This document shows, one piece after another, positions 10,725 to 20,810 of a stretch of DNA of 64,000 bases (position 1 is its first letter; each line of letters begins with the position of its first letter). The DNA is from Vulcanimicrobiota bacterium (lineage in GTDB: Bacteria > Vulcanimicrobiota > Xenobia > Xenobiales > JADMJV01), in NCBI GenBank assembly GCA_019637395.1, contig JAHBVR010000008.1, positions 124,001 to 188,000 on the forward strand, in the 5' to 3' direction. Under the pieces are notes generated by a model. It was not told the origin of the DNA. It ran no database searches and saw nothing but the letters and a program-made list of their open reading frames with translations. Position numbers and translations under genes: made by a program.

Positions 10725-11513
10725 CATGTTGTTTACCTCCCCGGGGCTCGGGCGGCCATCGACCTGAGGCGCGAAATGGACCTGGTGGTTCGGTTAAGGT
10801 TACGGGAGGGGGACGCTTATTTCGTCGTTCACGTTGAGCACGAGGCGCACAGCAGTGCGGACTTTCCGCCAAGGATGTTTCGCTACTTTTCCCGCCTGTG
10901 GGACCGATACGGGTTGCCGGTTTATCCCATCGCAGTCTTGTCTTTCCCAGGGAAAAAGCTGCGGCCGCAGCGCTACTGGCTGGACTTTCACGACCTGCGC
11001 GTTCTGGAGTTCCGTTACCGAACGGTGCAGTTGAATCAGCTGGACTGGCGAGCCTTCGTCGGCAGCCACAACCCGGTGGCCACTGCCCTGATGGCGCGCA
11101 TGAAGATTCGCAAGGCGGACCGGCCGCGGGTGAAGCTGCAATGCTTGCGCTTGCTGGTCACTCTGCGTCTGGATCGGCGGCGCAGCGGCTTGATAGCGCA
11201 TTTTGTGCATAGCTACCTGCGGTTAAACCAGGACGAGGTGAGGATTTACCGGGAGGCTCTAGAACTTACCCCGATGGGAGAAAGGCAAGAAATTATGCAG
11301 TACACGAATGAATGGATCGAGCAGGGACTGGCTGAGGGTCTCAGGCGAGGTCTGGCGATGTTCCTGAAGCTGCAGTATGGCGAGCGGGCTCTGGAGCTGA
11401 TTCAGCGGCTGCACTCACTGGACCTCTCCGGACTGGAGAAGCTTCAACAGCAACTGGAATCAGGAGTGGAACTTGAACAACTGGTGCCGAGCGTTCAAGA
11501 GGGTAGGCGGTAG
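10725..11513 (+). pseudogene. 5'-truncated Rpn-family (PD-(D/E)XK) nuclease / putative transposase
   Basis: Members of this family are recombination-promoting nucleases with an N-terminal PD-(D/E)XK fold and a helical tail. The readable frame is open from 10725, with an ATG at 10776 giving 245 residues. It shows the RREMDLVVRLRLREGD strand, the VHVEHEAH active-site segment, the middle ALMARMKIRKADRPRVKLQC region, and the tail GLAEGLRRGLAMFLKLQYG. About 45-50 residues that normally precede RRE-DL are missing, and the frame instead begins in the divergent rplC promoter region. It is probably a remnant, although a short functional protein cannot be excluded. Its 3' end overlaps the convergent gene by 19 bases. 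Confidence 0.6.
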
Positions 11514-12997
11514 GATTCATCCTGCTCGATTTGAGCCAGCACCCAGTCGAAGTCGCCCTGGGTGATGGTGCTGCCGCAGTATTCGCATTGGCCGGCCTGG
11601 CTGATGCGGTCGAGCGGGGCGCCGCAGCTGGGGCAGGTTCCGGCCGGGCGGGTCTCGGAGGGCGGTTGATAGCCGACCTTGCGAATCAGGGTCCAGTATT
11701 CACTGAACACTCGGGGTTGGTTGGGATTGCCGCCCAGGCGTCTGCCGCTGGACTTTTCCAGGGTGATATCGATCATCGAGGCAAAGATGCGCACCGTGAC
11801 GGCGTCGAAATACGCGTCCGTTTCGATGTTGCAGAGTTCGATCTTGAGCACTTTGATCTGCGACAACTGATTGACCACGCCCTGGCGCTGATAGGCTTCG
11901 ATCCAGTAGCGGTGGGTCTGATAAAGCGAGTCGGTTTCGTAGGGTCGGGCCCGTTCCCACTGCTGGTCCGACCAGGCTTGCTGGAGCGCCATAAAGATCT
12001 CCACCAGACGGGCTTCGAACTGTGTCTGCACAAATTCGGGATAGCGGGCCTGGAAGGCTCGCCAACGTTGGCCCAGTTGAGGACTGCGCCGGGTGGGCAG
12101 GTTGGTGCCGCGTTCGGGAGCCTGTTCGCCCAGTCCCAGTTGGAGCTGCTGGGCGCGCTCCTGGACCTGCACCTGAACCACGACCCAGCCGTAGTCACCG
12201 GTGTTGACCAGCTTATCGCAGTATGGGCAGAGTCCGTCTTTGCCTACCTCGCCGGACTGGCCGCAGTTGGGACAACCCAGGCGCACGGTCCCCACCGGGA
12301 TGGGGCCCGGACTGGTGACGCCGGCCTTGCGTTGAAAAGTCCAGCGCTCTTTGCTGTAGATTCTCTCTTCGCGGTCGCCGTGCAGTTCGGTGAAATTGCT
12401 CTCCAAGGTCAAGATGATGCGCACCCGGTTTTGGACGATCGTCTGGCTGAGGATTCGGGCGGCTCCCAAAAGGACGTTTTTGACGCCGGTCACCTGCTGG
12501 TTATGAGTCAGTTTGAGCATTGATTCGCGCACCTGGGGACTCAGATAGTGGCCCACCTCGGCCAGGTCGCCGCAACGTCCCTGTTGCACCTGAGTATACA
12601 GAAGCCCGATAAAGTCTCGGAAGACGTAGTAGGAAAAATTGGGATCGGGATTGCCCTTGGCCAGGGGCTGAACGTGAAAGACGTCGGCGTCGGGAACTTC
12701 GATGCCCGTCGAAGCCGGAAGGTTGCGCTTGAGGACGGTTTCCAGTCCCGGACTGTTCTGGTTAGCCATCCAGAAGAAAAGCACGACGAGCAGCACCGGA
12801 ATGCCCACCGCCGGGTAGCGAATCAGCAGCTCCAGCAGAAAAAAGATCAGCTGGCTGCTGTCTCCACCGCCTCCCGAAGGCGCAGAGGACGAGCCGGAGT
12901 AGGACGGGGACGACGGAGCGGAGTAGCTCTCTCCGCCACCCAGCCGGGCCCAGGCCGGCGCCGTCAATAACAGTATCCAGAGAACCCGGCTCAGCAC
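11495..12997 (-). CDS. Membrane-anchored Tim44-like protein with two zinc ribbons
   Basis: Starts at a GTG that overlaps the end of the upstream gene by seven bases, giving 500 residues and a clean signal peptide (VLSRVLWILLLTAPAWA). A Gly/Ser-rich stretch and a membrane segment near residues 50-78 follow. Two copies of a Tim44-like alpha/beta domain occupy about residues 115-240 and 300-435. Each is followed by a zinc ribbon, CPNCGQ...CPYC and CPSCGAP...CEYCGS. Bacterial Tim44-like proteins are membrane proteins of uncertain role. The paired TPM-domain gene suggests they act together. Starting further upstream would add 76 residues lying entirely within the upstream gene and of low-complexity character, so that start is rejected. 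Confidence 0.75.
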   Translation of the reverse strand: MLSRVLWILLLTAPAWARLGGGESYSAPSSPSYSGSSSAPSGGGGDSSQLIFFLLELLIRYPAVGIPVLLVVLFFWMANQNSPGLETVLKRNLPASTGIEVPDADVFHVQPLAKGNPDPNFSYYVFRDFIGLLYTQVQQGRCGDLAEVGHYLSPQVRESMLKLTHNQQVTGVKNVLLGAARILSQTIVQNRVRIILTLESNFTELHGDREERIYSKERWTFQRKAGVTSPGPIPVGTVRLGCPNCGQSGEVGKDGLCPYCDKLVNTGDYGWVVVQVQVQERAQQLQLGLGEQAPERGTNLPTRRSPQLGQRWRAFQARYPEFVQTQFEARLVEIFMALQQAWSDQQWERARPYETDSLYQTHRYWIEAYQRQGVVNQLSQIKVLKIELCNIETDAYFDAVTVRIFASMIDITLEKSSGRRLGGNPNQPRVFSEYWTLIRKVGYQPPSETRPAGTCPSCGAPLDRISQAGQCEYCGSTITQGDFDWVLAQIEQDESYRLPS

Positions 12998-13605
12998 AGA
13001 ATACGTACCTGATCGCTCAGTTCGTTCTGATCGTCCTCGGCTCGCGGGGCTTGCTCGCGCAACAGCGGCGCCAGTTCCTCGAGCACCCGGCTGACTGCTT
13101 TCTCCAGTTGATCCCATCCCCGGGCCGCGTCCAGGCGGGCCTGCAACTGATTCCAGCGCGCTCCCGGCACCCGTCCGGTCAATCCCAGGTCGGGGCGTAA
13201 CAGCGCCACCCGCTCGAAGCGACACACCAGAACCAGCAGGCCCATACGCTCGCGCGTGTGGCTCACCTCCAGGCGCGTAAAGGCCAGGTCGGCGCTACGC
13301 TCCGCTTGCTGGCGCCGGCGACGCGCACTGGTCATCCAGCGTCTTAGCCAGGGAGCGCGCCAACTGGCCAGGTAGCCCAGCGCTCCCACGAAAACGGTGT
13401 TGAGAACCAGCCCTTCGGGGTGAAACACAATGGGACTGTGGACCATGATCAGCAGCGTCAGCAAACTGGCCAGAACCGCCCATTTCCAGTTGGCCTCGCA
13501 GTAGTCGTCAGCCTGAGCTTGTTCCGCCACTACCACTTCGGCGCAACTCCCGCTTTCGATCTGGGCTACCTGAGTCTGCCATAACGAATGTCTCTCAGGA
13601 GTCAT
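12991..13605 (-). CDS. TPM-domain membrane protein
   Basis: A 204-residue protein starting at ATG 13605. Residues about 35-78 form two close membrane segments (WAVLASLLTLLIMV and LVLNTVFVGALGYLASW). The N-terminal SGSCAEVVVAEQ and the segment HTRERMGLLVLVCRFERVALLRPD resemble the TPM (TLP18.3/Psb32/MOLO-1) fold interrupted by the membrane hairpin. A TTG fourteen codons upstream is an alternative start. It is translationally linked to the Tim44-like gene behind it, and the same pairing of TPM and Tim44-like domains is known in other bacteria. Biochemical function unknown. Confidence 0.6.
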   Translation of the reverse strand: MTPERHSLWQTQVAQIESGSCAEVVVAEQAQADDYCEANWKWAVLASLLTLLIMVHSPIVFHPEGLVLNTVFVGALGYLASWRAPWLRRWMTSARRRRQQAERSADLAFTRLEVSHTRERMGLLVLVCRFERVALLRPDLGLTGRVPGARWNQLQARLDAARGWDQLEKAVSRVLEELAPLLREQAPRAEDDQNELSDQVRILC

Positions 13606-13684
13606 GGCGGATCGGTTTCCCGGTCGGCCCGCCCCGACCTTTCCCAAGGGCGTCCAAACCTCTGGATCCGGGAGACTGTTGAAT

Positions 13685-14254
13685 TTACCGGGGCGGTCCT
13701 TGCCAGACCCCTTGAGCCAATCCCCAACTGGCTGCCAGAGCGGTTGAGGAGGCCAGCGTGGCGCCGCCCATCATGGCTAACCCCCCGGGGTCGTGAATGA
13801 TGGCGCCGGGAGTGGCCACGATTCCTCCGAAGCCTCCGATGGCGCCCAGGGCGGCGCCGAAGGTCATGGCTCCGAATCTTTCGTCGGCGGCTGCTTTGCC
13901 CTCGAGCCCGTTCAGCTGGACCAGCTTGTCACCGGCCACTTTGCCGATGCCGGCCCCGATCATGCCACCCATGAGAAGGTTGGTGAGAAAACCGCCCAGG
14001 GGGACCCAAAGTGGAATGGCCGCGCTGACGGCGCTGGTCACGGCCAGGGGCACGGTCAGGGCGGTGCTGGCCAACAGAGCGTTGACGCCCGCGTTCTTGA
14101 GACCGTGGACCAGGCGACCACCGGCTTTTTGCAGGAGGCCGGGCGGTCCCGGCTGGTAGCCGTCTTGTGGTGGAGGAGAAGGGTTCGGGTCGCTCTTGAT
14201 TTGAACGGGCAAACCACGGGTGGGCGTCGCGTTGAGATTCTGTTGAATTTTCAT
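13685..14254 (-). CDS. Glycine-rich hydrophobic protein of unknown function
   Basis: A 189-residue protein I do not recognise. A polar, proline-rich N-terminus (MKIQQNLNATPTRG, then SDPNPSPPPQDGYQPGPPG) precedes a long hydrophobic region rich in Gly and Ala. That region has repeated stretches such as LLMGGMIGAGIGKVAGD and FGAALGAIGGFGGIVATPG, like glycine-zipper membrane-inserting proteins. No signal peptide is evident. It stands alone, with about 80 bases to the gene downstream and 100 bases to the one upstream. Confidence 0.6.
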   Translation of the reverse strand: MKIQQNLNATPTRGLPVQIKSDPNPSPPPQDGYQPGPPGLLQKAGGRLVHGLKNAGVNALLASTALTVPLAVTSAVSAAIPLWVPLGGFLTNLLMGGMIGAGIGKVAGDKLVQLNGLEGKAAADERFGAMTFGAALGAIGGFGGIVATPGAIIHDPGGLAMMGGATLASSTALAASWGLAQGVWQGPPR

Positions 14255-14356
14255 GAGGCGCTCCTTTATCTGTCTTTTCTCAGCTTAACAACCCGAGAAA
14301 GCGGCGCTCAGGGGGGAAATGGAAACAGGCTGTTACCGATGTTAAGAGTTTACGAT

Positions 14357-14938
14357 CTAGGACGAGCGAAGCTGGTAGACCCGCCAGCTGAGCGTGGCCA
14401 GCAACAATACGGCTAGCGAAGCCCAGCCCAGAGCTCCCATCACTTCGAGCAGTTGTTGCACGCGGTCTTGGAAAAAGTAGCCGGGAATCACGTAGAGCAG
14501 CACCCAGAAGCTTTGTCCGAGCAGACTCCAGGTGAGGAACTTGTGGGAAGCATAGTCGGCCATGCCACAGTTGAAGTTGACCCAGGGACCCAGCGGTACC
14601 AGCCAGCGCGTCAAGAAGATGCTGGGACCCTGCACTCTGGCCTGGTAGCGGACGGCTTTGTCCAGCGCGTGGCGCAGGCTGAGCCGGTCAGCCCAGTCGA
14701 GAATGCGTTGGCGGCCGGCCAGGCGGGCCAGCCAGAAAGCCAGCAGGTCTCCGCTGACGGCCGCGGCCACCACTCCGAAGAGGACGCCGGCCAGGCTCCA
14801 TTGAGCTCTCCTGGCAAAGGAGCCGGCCGCCACCAGGGCCAGGCTGAGCCCCGGCATGGGGACGCCGAAGCAGCAGATGGCCGTGCCCACAAAGAGCACG
14901 GGCAGGCCGTAGTGAGTGAGTAAGGCGCTCAGGTCCAT
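14357..14938 (-). CDS. DedA/VTT-family membrane protein
   Basis: A 193-residue integral membrane protein with the DedA order: N-terminal hydrophobic segment (GLPVLFVGTAICCFGVPMPG), a reentrant loop with the small-residue GSFARRAQWS region, GDLLAFWLARLAGR, and FLTRWLVPLGPWVNFNCGMADY, which corresponds to the family FxxRFxPxxRxxxxxxAG motif in altered form. DedA/VTT proteins are implicated in lipid carrier flipping and membrane homeostasis. Here the second conserved arginine of the motif is not obvious, so substrate assignment is unsafe. The gene is isolated on both sides. Confidence 0.75.
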   Translation of the reverse strand: MDLSALLTHYGLPVLFVGTAICCFGVPMPGLSLALVAAGSFARRAQWSLAGVLFGVVAAAVSGDLLAFWLARLAGRQRILDWADRLSLRHALDKAVRYQARVQGPSIFLTRWLVPLGPWVNFNCGMADYASHKFLTWSLLGQSFWVLLYVIPGYFFQDRVQQLLEVMGALGWASLAVLLLATLSWRVYQLRSS

Positions 14939-15017
14939 CCTGGTTCAGCATAGGCGGGTGGGCACCGGGCGGGACAGGCGAGGAAATCCTGTCTGGGCGG
15001 TATTGGGGTCGTGGTGA

Positions 15018-16193
15018 TCAGACTCCGGGCACGCGTGGGTCGCGAATCACCCCTTCGTTGCTGATCAGGCCGGCCAGGGCGGGGTCGCGCAGCACTTCGG
15101 AGACCGGGCGTTCTTGTCCGTCCACAATCATGGTGCCACCTACCAGGCGCACGCCGTGGCTGTAGTCAGCGTAGCTGCTTTCATGGACGGTACTGAGGCC
15201 CTGGATCGGTTTGCCATTTTGTTGGTGCCATCCGTAGATCGCGACCCGATCCGGGTGTTGGGTCAGGCGGTTGGAGATGACCAGGTCCTTCTGGTGGCCG
15301 GCCGTGAGCCGTCCATGCTCGGCGCCGCGCCGGGCCATTTGCGTTTCCACCAGATCGTTGTGGCGCTGGTAGTAGTCGTTGGACATCATCTGAGCGCCCG
15401 CCGGCAGGGGCTGGGGGGTCAGTTTGGTGTCGGCCTGTTGGTAAATATCGTCGACCATCTTGGTGGTGGGCAGGCTGGTGCCGGTCTGGTCGGCAATTTT
15501 TTGGGCGGTTTGGGCGTCCATGGGAATGCGCACGAAGTCATCGTTGGAACCGATGGCCAGGTAGTCGGGCATGACCCGCAGGGTGCCGGTGTGGCCGTTG
15601 TTGCTGACCTGGATTTCGCGCATCTGGCGGGCGAAGTCGGGCACGTTGCCCTTTTGGATTTCCTGTAAAATCCTGGCTTCGCGTTGTTTGCGATCCAGGC
15701 CGCGGGTACTCTCGAGGAATTCTTTGCCGGTCATGGAGCCTTCCGGGCGCGGTGGAAGCGGAAGGCTGGCCTGGCTGGGCGCGCTTTGCGGCCGCTTCTC
15801 CGCCGCCGGCTGAGCGCTGGCCGGACTGGCCGGCTCAGGCCTGGGGGCTGGGGCGGGTTGCTGAGGGGCCGCGGGCCGGGCCACTCCGGGGCTGGCAGAT
15901 GACATCGGCCGGCTCGGGAGGGGGCGGCTTTGGACCGGCCGGTTGTGCTGGGGCCAATTTTGTACGGCGCGCTGGTAGGCCGGTTGCAGAGCGGGCTGGG
16001 CCCAGGATTGGAACAACTGCTGCAGCAGCGGCTCGTTGAAGAGTTCGTCGGCTTCTTCTTCCTCGTCCAGACTGGCTTCGTCATCAAGCGGAGAGGCTCC
16101 CCAGGCACTGATTTGCTCGTCCTCATGCCAGTGCGGGCGCGGGGAGTCCACCCGGTTTTCGTAGCGCGCGGGAGAACCTTCTCGGATTTTCAT
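15018..16193 (-). CDS. Conserved protein of unknown function with disordered N-terminal half
   Basis: 391 residues. The first 150 are acidic and then Pro/Ala/Ser-rich (LDDEASLDEEEEADELF, then PAPAPRPEPASPASAQPA), presumably disordered. From about residue 155 a compact domain follows with ARQMREIQV, VMPDYLAIGSNDDFVRIPM, LPTTKMVDDIYQQA, LTAGHQKDLVISNRL, RVAIYGWHQQNGKPIQGL and SYADYSHGVRLVGG. I recognise this as a widespread conserved hypothetical domain in high-GC bacteria and planctomycetes, without known biochemistry. The invariant-looking His, Asp and Tyr residues (GHQKD, YGWH, YADYSHG) suggest an enzyme. Confidence 0.7.
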   Translation of the reverse strand: MKIREGSPARYENRVDSPRPHWHEDEQISAWGASPLDDEASLDEEEEADELFNEPLLQQLFQSWAQPALQPAYQRAVQNWPQHNRPVQSRPLPSRPMSSASPGVARPAAPQQPAPAPRPEPASPASAQPAAEKRPQSAPSQASLPLPPRPEGSMTGKEFLESTRGLDRKQREARILQEIQKGNVPDFARQMREIQVSNNGHTGTLRVMPDYLAIGSNDDFVRIPMDAQTAQKIADQTGTSLPTTKMVDDIYQQADTKLTPQPLPAGAQMMSNDYYQRHNDLVETQMARRGAEHGRLTAGHQKDLVISNRLTQHPDRVAIYGWHQQNGKPIQGLSTVHESSYADYSHGVRLVGGTMIVDGQERPVSEVLRDPALAGLISNEGVIRDPRVPGV

Positions 16194-16303
16194 ATCAGCA
16201 AGACCTCTTTCCTGGTATTTGGATCGAGGCTAAGGGACGGCGATTATTTGGACCTTACCGGCGTTCGCTCGAGATGAACAGAATGTTACTAACCTTCGGG
16301 GAG

Positions 16304-17314
16304 TTACTCCCAGTGGGGAGGGACCTTTCGGTTGTCGGGGCTGGCGTCGGCGCGGGGCACGCGGAGGCGGATGTTCTGCTCGTTTTCATCGCAGGTGAGA
16401 GTGCCTTTGAGCTGCAGCGCCTGGTCATTCATGGCCACCACGCCGGCGTGGCTGGAGCTGACCTGCAGTTCCCCCTCCCAGTCGAGGTCCAGACGGATTT
16501 GTTCGGGGTCGACCGACAAAGTGACGGTGATTTGTTCCAGAGCTCCCTCGAGCAACAGATGAAGGCCGGCTTCGCAGACACGGAAGAGTCCCAGGCGGGT
16601 GCGTGAATCCAGCCGCAAGGGGCGGTCCGGGCGCACCAGTTGCCAGGGGATTCCCTGCAGGCCGCAGTTCTCCTGAAGCAGCCAGTCGATGGCCGCCTCC
16701 AGACCCAGTTCATCGAGAATTGGTGGCCGCAGTCCCTTCCAGAGTTGGCGGACGGAGCGTAGAATACTATCGATGGAAAGAGTCAGCCTGGCGGCGTGAG
16801 CTTCGGACCCTTCGGGTAGTTTCGACTTTAGCCAGGAGACTTCAAACTTGAGAGCGCTCAGCGATTGGCCGAGCTGGTCGTGAAGTTCGCGGGCGATTCG
16901 TGCCTTTTCTTGTTCCTGGAGACTTTGCATGCGGGCGGCGATGGCCCGGGCCAGGGGCTCGTGGGCCACCCGATAAGTGACGTCTTCGAGAAAGGAGAGA
17001 AAATGCGTCGGCTCGCCCTCCGCATCTCGCTTGAGGGTCGTCTGCAGCAGCACCCACACCACCGCTCCATCCTTGCGCACGTAGCGCTTGAGTTCTTGCT
17101 GAAAACGTTCGTAGTGGCGCAGAGCCTGATCGACAATGTTGACGCTCAGAGCTCGATCTTCCGGATGGGTGACGTCGCGCACGCGCATGGATTTCAATTC
17201 ATGCGCTTCGTAACCCAAAAGTTTGCACAGGGCGTTATTGGTGCGTAGCCAGCAGCCGTCTAAAGAGACTTCCGCTACCGCCCGCTCGGATTCTATGAAG
17301 GAATCATAGCTCAA
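16304..17314 (-). CDS. PAS-domain histidine kinase (HisKA_3 type) with degenerate ATPase domain
   Basis: 336 residues from a TTG start. Residues about 5-115 form a PAS/PAC domain (VSLDGCWLRTNNALCKLLGY and VLLQTTLKRDAEGEPTHFL), with no membrane segment, so it is cytosolic. The NarL/DesK-type dimerisation box EKARIARELHDQLGQSLSALK places the phosphoacceptor at His145. The C-terminal region has the expected length, but the N-box reads FRVCEAGLHLLLEG without the usual asparagine. No DxGxG motif is seen where IRLDLDWEGEL and VVAMNDQALQLKG stand. It may not bind ATP. It follows the REC-pseudokinase gene by 155 bases and probably functions with it. Confidence 0.75.
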   Translation of the reverse strand: MSYDSFIESERAVAEVSLDGCWLRTNNALCKLLGYEAHELKSMRVRDVTHPEDRALSVNIVDQALRHYERFQQELKRYVRKDGAVVWVLLQTTLKRDAEGEPTHFLSFLEDVTYRVAHEPLARAIAARMQSLQEQEKARIARELHDQLGQSLSALKFEVSWLKSKLPEGSEAHAARLTLSIDSILRSVRQLWKGLRPPILDELGLEAAIDWLLQENCGLQGIPWQLVRPDRPLRLDSRTRLGLFRVCEAGLHLLLEGALEQITVTLSVDPEQIRLDLDWEGELQVSSSHAGVVAMNDQALQLKGTLTCDENEQNIRLRVPRADASPDNRKVPPHWE

Positions 17315-17469
17315 CTCAGATCGACCCCGGGCACTCTCACATTGCTCTTATCGACCACTATTCCAGTGAAACCAAGAGTGTCTTTTGGCCAGTCCTGACC
17401 ATTTTTCGGTAAGTTGATCGAACCAAATTTCACTAGGAAGCAGACCTCGCTGGTGGCGAGTGCGCCAGC

Positions 17470-19026
17470 TCAATTCACGGTTTGCATCGCCGTAATGGCC
17501 TCGCTTAGGCCTTTGAAACGTCTAGCCGGATCGGGATCGAGCATGGTGCGCAGGGCGGGCCCGTAGGGGCCCAGGGGTTCGTCTTCGGCCAGATGGCTGA
17601 AGCGATGGAAGGAAGCGACCGGCGAGAGTGCCCCCACGACGGCTTCGCCGAAGATTCGGGCCAGTACGAACTGATCGGCGGCCGGGCTGGGTGAGGCCTG
17701 TTGGGCCAGTTCGGGAGCGGCCAGGAAAAGGTCGCCGGGCTGCCCGGCCCCGGTCAAGGCCAGCCCGCGCCAGCGCTCAGGTCCGAATCCCTCGATGTGA
17801 ACTGCATTGTCGGCGTCGAAGAGAACGTGACGGGTGCCGAAGCAGCCGCAGCAGAGGCCCTGGCTGTGCAGTTCTCGGACCGCCAGAAAGACTGGCTTGA
17901 GCAGGTGCCAAGCCATTTCGGGCGGCATAGCACCCGGGCGCATCCGCCTCTTCAGACTGGTGCCGCTGGCCTTCCGGTAGTGCAGGAGATGATGACTCTG
18001 GATGTTTCCGAGGTAGCTGGCGCGCCCGCTGGAGACCTCCTGCTGAAAGAAGGCTTCGTTTTCCGGGCTGGCCGGCAGGCAAAGTACGCGTCCGGCTCCG
18101 GTTTCGTAAAGGCGGGCCTGCTGGGCGCCGACCAGCAACCTCTGCAAGGTCAACCCTTCGACCTGGGTACCGATGAACTCGTCCCTTTGGGCGTCTTCTT
18201 CCCAAATGCGGCAGTAGCAGCTGTAGGCTTCCAGGTCGGCTTTGCGGGCGTCTGCGGAGAACCAGAGGGCCAGGGAGCGTTCAAAATGCTCGGGTTCGAC
18301 CGTGCCCGCGCGCACACGCTCGTAGAGGCGGCGAAAAGCGGCGCGTGGAACCAGTTCGGCCGCTTCCACCCGTTGGCCGGCGATGGAGTTGAGCAACAGT
18401 TTTTCCAGCTCCTGGATGGATTCGCTGAGGGAGGTCCAGAGAGCCGGGTCATTTTTCAGGAATTCGCGTTCGCTGGAGGCGAAGCGGTTGAAGATCGGGT
18501 GGGCTTCCTCGGGAGAGATTCGGCCTGAGCGCATGAGCAGAAAGAGGCGCTGGGCGAAGCGTTTGCGCAGTTCCTGGAGTTGCTGAAGTTGTTTGTCGTT
18601 CAGCCAGCGCCAGAAGTTGCCGCGTGAGGAGAGCACCTTGCGCAATAAAGTCGGCGGGGGAGTTTCTTCGCGGTCGAGCACCGAGCGCACCGTTCGGGAA
18701 AGTTCGGCCAGCTCGAAGGGTTTGGTGAGGTAGTCTTCGGCCTGCAGACGAGCCGCTCGCACAGGCACTTCCAGATCGGCAAAACCGGTCATGACGATGC
18801 ATTTGAGATGGGGGGCCCGAGCTTTGATGGCTTCCAGAGCGCTGACTCCGTCCATGCCACCCAGGCGCACATCGGTCAGGAGCAGGTGAAAGTCCTGGCG
18901 CCGGGCAATTTCGATGGCCTCCTGGGCGCTGCCGACGGCGGTGACCTGGTAGCCTTCCGCGTCGAGCAGGTCGGCGATGACCTCCCGGAAGTTTTCATCG
19001 TCCTCGAGAACCAGTATTTGTTCCAA
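17470..19026 (-). CDS. Response regulator with C-terminal pseudokinase domain
   Basis: 518 residues. The N-terminal receiver domain is complete, with Asp9/Asp10, phosphoacceptor Asp52 (LLLTDVRL), Thr80 and Lys102. A helical linker spans about 120-285. Residues about 288-515 align in outline with a Ser/Thr protein kinase: LHSQGLCCGCFGTRHVLFDAD at the catalytic loop (386-406), EGFG in place of DFG (412-415), APE at 437-439, DQFVLARIFGEAVVG and the PARRF ending. The catalytic Asp, Lys and Asn of HxDxKxxN are replaced, and the metal-binding Asp of DFG is Gly. It should therefore be a pseudokinase, perhaps a phosphorylation-controlled scaffold. It follows rpsJ and its terminator and precedes the PAS kinase gene. 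Confidence 0.75.
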   Translation of the reverse strand: MEQILVLEDDENFREVIADLLDAEGYQVTAVGSAQEAIEIARRQDFHLLLTDVRLGGMDGVSALEAIKARAPHLKCIVMTGFADLEVPVRAARLQAEDYLTKPFELAELSRTVRSVLDREETPPPTLLRKVLSSRGNFWRWLNDKQLQQLQELRKRFAQRLFLLMRSGRISPEEAHPIFNRFASSEREFLKNDPALWTSLSESIQELEKLLLNSIAGQRVEAAELVPRAAFRRLYERVRAGTVEPEHFERSLALWFSADARKADLEAYSCYCRIWEEDAQRDEFIGTQVEGLTLQRLLVGAQQARLYETGAGRVLCLPASPENEAFFQQEVSSGRASYLGNIQSHHLLHYRKASGTSLKRRMRPGAMPPEMAWHLLKPVFLAVRELHSQGLCCGCFGTRHVLFDADNAVHIEGFGPERWRGLALTGAGQPGDLFLAAPELAQQASPSPAADQFVLARIFGEAVVGALSPVASFHRFSHLAEDEPLGPYGPALRTMLDPDPARRFKGLSEAITAMQTVN

Positions 19027-19044
19027 TTGTCCCCCTGGGCCTCC

Positions 19045-19075
19045 AAAAAAAGGAGCCCGGATTTTTCCGGGCTCC
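19045..19075 (-). terminator. Rho-independent terminator of the str operon
   Basis: On the leftward transcript a perfect 9-base-pair stem (GGAGCCCGG with CCGGGCTCC, 19052-19060 and 19067-19075) with a 6-base loop is followed by seven U residues (19045-19051). It lies 20 bases after rpsJ and ends the rpsL-rpsG-fusA-tuf-rpsJ unit. Confidence 0.9.
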
Positions 19076-19095
19076 TTTTCGGTAGGTTAGAAAAT

Positions 19096-19407
19096 TTAGC
19101 CTTTGATTTCGATGTCGACGCCGGCGGGCAGATCGACTTTCATCAGTTGCTCGATGGTCTTCTGCTGGGGATCGAAGTAGATGTCGATCAGGCGCTTGTG
19201 GGTGCGCACTTCAAAGTGCTCGCGGGACTTCTTGTCCACGTGGGGGGAGCGCAGCACACAGTAGCGATTCTTTTCGGTGGGCAGCGGTACCGGGCCCGAG
19301 ATATTGGCGCCGGTTTGACGAGCGATTTGCACGATCTTTTCGGACGATTCGTCCAGAATCAGGTGATCGTAAGCCTTGAGTTTGATACGGATACGTTGCT
19401 TAGCCAT
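19096..19407 (-). CDS. rpsJ: 30S ribosomal protein S10
   Basis: A 103-residue head protein of the small subunit, also a transcription antitermination partner (NusE). It has [36 protein letters not shown] and the [19 protein letters not shown] ending. Instead of leading the S10 operon it ends the str operon behind tuf, as in cyanobacteria and some other deep lineages, and is followed directly by a terminator. Confidence 0.98.
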
Positions 19408-19462
19408 TTTCGATTCCTCCGGGGAATTTGTAAGAACCTCCAGCTAGGAGCCAGAGTCAAAT

Positions 19463-19591
19463 GGAGTTTTCCTGATGGAAAACTCCGGGAGGTCGCTTTA
19501 GCGAACTCCGGTTTGCCTGCGCAAAACTTCCGGTGAAGTGAGCGAAGCTTGGTGAAACAGGGGGGATGCCTGCTTAAGGGCATCCCCCCTG
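19463..19591 (-). promoter_or_regulatory. Two perfect stem-loops between tuf and rpsJ
   Basis: The 200-base tuf-rpsJ gap contains a 13-base-pair stem with 8-base loop (19558-19591, core GGGGGGATGCC paired to its complement) just after the tuf stop. A 10-base-pair stem with a 4-base loop follows (19463-19486). The first is only weakly followed by U residues. They could be a partial terminator that lowers rpsJ relative to tuf, or processing signals. No additional gene fits in the gap. Confidence 0.55.
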
Positions 19592-19607
19592 TCTGTGAAG
19601 CTAGTGC

Positions 19608-20810
<1,203 letters not shown>

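Follow-up and report, generated by a model that had tools for sequence, protein, structure and literature searches.

Two adjacent genes with degenerate ATP sites

The stretch analysed here (the window; 64,000 nucleotides of contig JAHBVR010000008.1, positions 124,001 to 188,000, from a Vulcanimicrobiota bacterium, genome G000) carries two neighbouring genes for signalling proteins that are both predicted to be pseudoenzymes. One of them (17470..19026) encodes a 518-amino-acid receiver-linker-pseudokinase with a TTG start (hereafter, the receiver-pseudokinase); the other (16304..17314) encodes a 336-amino-acid PAS-HisKA_3 pseudo-histidine kinase (pseudo-HK), whose TTG start is kept in three genomes. 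All features given below are numbered by window position and lie on the minus strand, and both open frames run exactly where a preliminary description of this DNA had placed them.

The receiver (REC) domain of the 518-amino-acid protein (residues 4-113; 18688..19017) is intact (Pfam Response_reg, E 4.4e-26). Upon alignment, E8, D9, D10, D52, T80 and K102 were all present, including the phosphoacceptor Asp52 (codon 18871..18873), and the domain scored best against NtrC/AtoC-type receivers. It is followed by a helical linker (residues 120-284; 18175..18669), which lacks a Pfam match and is common to regulators of about 290 amino acids in the class that consist of REC and linker only (REC-linker regulators), and by the pseudokinase domain (residues 285-518; 17473..18174), which was delineated by an AlphaFold2 model, PDB matches and a family profile. 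Pfam returned nothing above cut-off for this protein except REC, leaving the kinase fold uncalled, and neither Pfam nor NCBIfam supplied a family name for linker and pseudokinase. The AlphaFold2 model, computed with 16 family sequences, reached a mean predicted local distance difference test (pLDDT) score of 77.3 and a predicted TM score (pTM) of 0.38, and the PDB structure matches were headed by PknI, Stk1, PknB and PknA; PknB, PknA and PknI also came top among the VIA-align comparisons. In VIA-align, the C-lobe (residues 352-518) aligned with PknB (3oro) at a Z score of 16.8 and a root-mean-square deviation (rmsd) of 3.0 over 157 residues. As the rmsd of whole-domain structure alignments was near 11, the modelled arrangement of the lobes is unreliable. 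Judging from the model and these matches, the output domain has a protein kinase fold.

Alignment with relatives and canonical kinases placed Pro318 (18073..18075), Cys395 (17842..17844), His400 and Gly413 in the columns of the VAIK-Lys, the HRD-Asp, the catalytic Asn and the DFG-Asp, respectively, with GFG at the DFG position (residues 413-415; 17782..17790).

The pseudo-HK is composed of a PAS domain (residues 13-112; 16979..17278), a HisKA_3-type DHp domain (residues 136-199; 16718..16909; Pfam E 1.8e-13) and a degenerate ATP-binding (CA) domain (residues 206-322; 16349..16699). The phosphoacceptor His145 (codon 16880..16882) is retained and is followed by D146...Q150, a DxxxQ motif present in all three full-length pseudo-HKs. 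HATPase_c was detected at 126 places in G000 and at none in the pseudo-HK, yet the CA region matched intact CA domains in hhalign (97.9%). In the alignment, Leu occupies the N-box Asn column and DxGxG reads WEGEL. The pseudo-HK is thus predicted to lack canonical ATP binding, as judged from sequence and profile comparison (a single-sequence structure model had a pLDDT of only 36). The residue-level claims of the preliminary description, i.e. an intact Asp52 joined to a kinase-fold output that lacks the catalytic Asp, Lys and Asn and has GFG for DFG, and a neighbour that keeps His145 but not the N-box Asn and DxGxG, were borne out by these alignments.

Conservation of the residue losses

The receiver-pseudokinase was searched for in 98 relatives, and a pseudokinase profile was searched against 58 genomes. 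The resulting family has 29 members, eight in G000 and four, three, eight and six in its congeners G001, G002, G003 and G004, respectively. Among the matches listed in the profile search, members were confined to these five congeneric Ca. Eremiobacterota genomes, with none in the other 53; 28 members matched with E <= 2.0e-73, the best non-member among the listed matches with 1.8e-28. The 29th member (G002, contig C616) is truncated by the contig end and falls outside the E <= 2.0e-73 set. Two incomplete members, one in G003 that seemed receiver-less and whose frame exits at a contig end (L046) and one in G002 with its C-terminus cut off (L057), were counted only where readable; the counts per position refer to the members readable there, 28 of the 29, or all 29 at the VAIK position. 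Of 27 loci inspected, 15 held family members and 12 did not; nine of the latter were aligned, with L099, L108 and L110 left outside the alignment.

The receiver residues E8, D9, D10, D52, T80 and K102 are kept in 28/28 members. The VAIK Lys is kept in none of 29, being replaced by Pro in 26 and by Pro, Val, Ala or Ser throughout; the HRD Asp is kept in none of 28 (Cys in 16, Ser in five, Gly in five, Asn and His in one each), and neither is the catalytic Asn, with Asp at its position in 18. The DFG Asp persists in two members and is lost in 26/28. The fold residues APE 437-439, Asp451 (aF-Asp) and Arg503 (aI-Arg) are present in every readable member. All nine aligned non-family loci are kinases with intact motifs, and the ten next-best kinases of the same and related genomes all keep a VAIK-type Lys, HRDLKP-N and DFG. 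Since the losses recur across the family, those in the window protein are not due to chance.

It is conceivable that the pseudokinase has acquired another enzymatic activity, of the type of SelO AMPylation or SidJ glutamylation, or retains residual catalysis via other residues. SelO and SidJ are known precedents for such a change (PMC12599244), and the pocket is not random, as Gly394 and Phe414 are kept in 28/28 members. However, SelO and SidJ retain the Lys and a DFG-like Asp according to a table in the same review of bacterial pseudokinases (PMC12599244), while here the Lys is lost in 29/29, Asp and Asn in 28/28 and the DFG-Asp in all but two of 28, and the substitutes differ among members. 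We consider such an activity very improbable.

In a tree of receivers and linkers, from which L151 and L152 were left out for their divergent receivers, a single branch (support 76/84) separates the members with a pseudokinase from the rest. One lineage of receiver-pseudokinases, represented in all five genomes (L037, L045, L052, L056 and L059), carries a three-residue insert after the receiver Lys and lies near a DUF2079 membrane protein gene in four of the five. L037 matched a defence kinase model (MAD6) with only 40 bits, far below the cut-off of 460.

For the pseudo-HK, full-length orthologues were found in G001 (84% identical) and G003 (78-79%), and both carry the same CA substitutions. 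Over residues 1-129, encompassing the PAS region, identity to these two orthologues amounts to 95.3% and 93.8%. G004 has a 163-amino-acid open frame corresponding to the C-terminal part of the pseudo-HK only, with a likewise degenerate CA domain, and PAS or DHp similarity was not found at that locus. Between G000 and the G001 and G003 orthologues, the ratio of non-synonymous to synonymous substitution rates (dN/dS, by NG86; rough values, as dS is near saturation) was 0.024-0.032 for the PAS domain, 0.060-0.086 for the DHp domain and 0.187-0.319 for the CA domain; the CA domains of intact paralogues gave 0.042-0.155 (four of five pairs computable). Because its dN/dS exceeds that of intact CA domains yet stays well below 1, the CA domain of the pseudo-HK appears to be under relaxed constraint that has not been lost, and the strongest constraint appears to act on the PAS domain.

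These data also bear on the idea that the genes are simply decaying, with a recent loss of function in the window copy only. The pseudo-HK CA domain does evolve about 2-3 times faster than most of the intact kinases compared, and G004 has a remnant only. On the other hand, the frames are open, the substitutions are common to the family and to the orthologues, dN/dS is well below 1 in every computable domain and the PAS region is 94-95% identical between species. Decay of the window copy alone is rejected on the basis of the family-wide substitutions, and this explanation, the least probable of those considered, is largely refuted. Indeed, homologues that retain the missing residues, which according to the preliminary description would speak against its proposal, were sought, and the losses were found instead in both pseudo-HK orthologues and throughout the receiver-pseudokinase family. 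Its more general statement, that both proteins are deficient at the ATP step and keep the residues for phosphoryl transfer, with substitutions recurring in relatives, agrees with our results. As relatives share the substitutions and the sequences stay constrained, both losses are old and maintained.

Gene neighbourhoods of the two proteins

In G000, the block with the two genes sits between rpsJ and rplC, and the same ribosomal genes flank it elsewhere where the fetched stretches reach. Across window positions 11495-19100 (L080-L083), the rpsJ-rplC order is broken by a block of varying content that comprises signalling genes as well as genes for VTT-domain and Tim44-domain proteins. Read in the direction of the pseudo-HK gene, the order in G000 is receiver-pseudokinase (on the same strand), pseudo-HK and a 391-amino-acid neighbour; in G001 it is T2SSF, pseudo-HK and the neighbour; in G003 it is T2SSF, an inverted receiver-pseudokinase gene divergent from the pseudo-HK gene, pseudo-HK and the neighbour; and the G004 locus has the pseudo-HK remnant only. 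A tblastn search of the G001 and G004 loci with the receiver-pseudokinase found nothing. The receiver-pseudokinase gene therefore adjoins the pseudo-HK gene at two of the three loci with a full-length pseudo-HK, in opposite orientations. The conserved neighbour downstream of the pseudo-HK (15018..16193), kept in G000, G001 and G003, had no family match in Pfam or NCBIfam.

A conserved 29-nucleotide element (17374..17402) lies in the gap between the two genes, upstream of the pseudo-HK. Single copies, identical except for one A/G position, are present in G000, G001 and G003, and no copy was found in G002, G004 or G005 when up to three mismatches were allowed. This element suggests a separate transcript for the pseudo-HK. 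It also exceeds the synonymous sites of the pseudo-HK in conservation and contains a near-palindrome (counterparts at L155 and L156). A pattern scan of 14900-19700 revealed no sigma-70 promoter. Between rpsJ and the receiver-pseudokinase gene, a terminator-like hairpin is followed by a T run (19045..19075; -31.2 kcal/mol, z -6.6), although this hairpin was absent from the output of the pattern scan.

The preliminary description had interpreted the two genes as a two-component pair. In such a single module, the pseudo-HK would take phosphate from another kinase and hand it to Asp52, with the receiver-pseudokinase acting as a scaffold. The genes are adjacent in G000 and G003, and His145 and Asp52 are intact and conserved. 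However, the receiver-pseudokinase is missing beside the G001 pseudo-HK, orientation differs between loci, the pseudo-HK has its own conserved upstream element, and a HisKA_3 (NarX/UhpB-like) histidine kinase would be combined with an NtrC/AtoC-like receiver. Moreover, other family members occur without a nearby histidine kinase: no PF02518 (HATPase_c) match lay within 7 kb of the receiver-pseudokinases of G000 (0/8), G003 (0/8; a lower bound, as 150/183 candidates were scored) or G004 (0/6), making 0/22 in all, with the nearest match 7.5 kb away; several contigs are short. The co-occurrence of the two genes, proposed earlier as a check, thus held for G000 and G003 and failed for the G001 and G004 loci, and the pairing itself could not be upheld. 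We regard the single module as unlikely; the two proteins might act on each other, but the gene neighbourhoods do not favour this. Phosphotransfer from another kinase and scaffolding, suggested in the same description, are plausible in themselves.

The linker extends past the genus to class level, with matches in 12/58 genomes, and recurs in the REC-linker regulators, some of which are adjoined by HisKA-type histidine kinases (L141, L142, L145 and L149). We propose that a kinase-coupled REC-linker regulator may have acquired a kinase fold, lost catalysis and spread as orphans.

The surroundings of these regulators raise another explanation, namely that receiver-pseudokinases regulate the assembly platform of type IV pili or type II secretion, a role inherited from REC-linker regulators beside T2SSF. 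T2SSF genes occur in the flanks of 8/17 REC-linker loci (a partial T2SSF-like frame without a Pfam match at L142 was not counted), four of the eight REC-linker genes of G000 have one within about 2 kb, and T2SSF adjoins the pseudo-HK in G001 and the receiver-pseudokinase in G003. Yet T2SSF was found within 5 kb of only one of the eight G000 receiver-pseudokinases, though the genome has about 40 such genes, and the G000 locus in the window has none nearby. This role is, in our estimate, quite unlikely. The T2SSF complement of G000 (86 domain matches) amounts to a large PilC/GspF-type expansion. At L145 (G000:C15:115500-121000), T2SSF, a REC-linker regulator, a GAF histidine kinase and a T2SSE ATPase are clustered in what is likely a two-component-controlled pilus or secretion locus.

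Proposed roles and comparison with known systems

Based on these results, we suggest that the two genes encode separately maintained pseudoenzymes that do not form an obligate pair: a member of a phospho-switched adaptor family, that is, of response regulators with an obligate pseudokinase output expanded within the lineage, and an ATP-independent sensor. We give this explanation as a whole an even chance of being correct. Asp52 of the receiver-pseudokinase would receive its phosphate from a histidine kinase encoded elsewhere in the genome, or else from a small phosphodonor, and its phosphorylation would rearrange receiver and linker, thereby altering binding by the pseudokinase C-lobe. The protein might then serve as a phospho-switched adaptor, by analogy to RssB with its pseudophosphatase, and its partner may be a resident active Ser/Thr kinase or the targets of such kinases. 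The PAS domain could provide the controlled input of the pseudo-HK, which, gated in this manner, may strip phosphate from response regulators, in the manner of the NarX phosphatase reaction, or relay phosphate between them, in the manner of the phosphotransferases PhyT, Spo0B and ChpT, via His145 and DxxxQ.

Several points weigh against this explanation. The adaptor role and the relay or phosphatase role are putative. The low pTM of 0.38 makes the domain and lobe arrangement of the AlphaFold2 model uncertain, and the moderate tree support of 76/84 makes a single origin of the pseudokinase members possible, not firm. Full-length orthologues of the pseudo-HK number only two, the dN/dS values are rough, and the faster evolution of its CA domain compared to intact kinases also fits slow erosion. 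Finally, the receiver-pseudokinase and pseudo-HK genes are direct neighbours in two genomes, with a different arrangement in each, so that a functional link is conceivable.

A bolder extension, which we put forward tentatively and consider unlikely, is that up to eight parallel, Asp-switched receiver-pseudokinases per cell could engage the PknB-like kinases of the same cell, either as allosteric partners or as decoys, coupling His-Asp to Ser/Thr signalling without a transcription factor and constituting a genus-specific output class. The family offers a directly testable link between the two kinds of phosphosignalling and, occurring beside active canonical kinases, a clean natural experiment on a kinase fold that only binds. 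The locus further illustrates that adjoining genes with "HK" and "RR" domains need not be a pair.

Bacterial pseudokinases are experimentally largely unexplored according to a review, in which a term search of the text returned neither "receiver" nor "response regulator" (PMC12599244). No report of a receiver-pseudokinase was recognized by title or abstract start among the open-licence papers listed; other papers may exist. The Ser/Thr pseudokinase families ActPs, CP1, DLHK and DYD as well as EssB/YukC resemble the present domain in their PknB-like fold and degraded catalytic motifs (PMC12599244), whereas the present domain forms the output part of a response regulator. An REC-Ser/Thr-kinase fusion from a deltaproteobacterial metagenome-assembled genome (L109) likewise joins REC to a PknB-like kinase located behind it in a single open frame; unlike the receiver-pseudokinases, its kinase keeps HRDVKPAN and DFG.

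A close parallel in architecture is RssB, an Escherichia coli response regulator and sigma-S adaptor, in which REC with a phosphoacceptor Asp is joined to a protein-binding output of enzyme fold (PP2C) without active-site residues (PMC7226468). Here, a helical linker leads instead to an output with a kinase fold, and eight copies are found in G000. Similar to PhyT, Spo0B and ChpT, the pseudo-HK is derived from a histidine kinase, retains the His and has a degenerate ATPase domain; it differs in its HisKA_3 DHp domain with DxxxQ and its PAS input, PhyT being membrane-anchored (PMC5898713). With NarX/UhpB-type HisKA_3 kinases it has in common an H-box with DxxxQ, a motif tied to the phosphatase reaction, as in NarX, and a CA domain homologous by profile (PMC3510030), but it lacks the N box and DxGxG. 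The two proteins extend two known kinds, the response regulator with a pseudoenzyme output and the degenerate histidine kinase.

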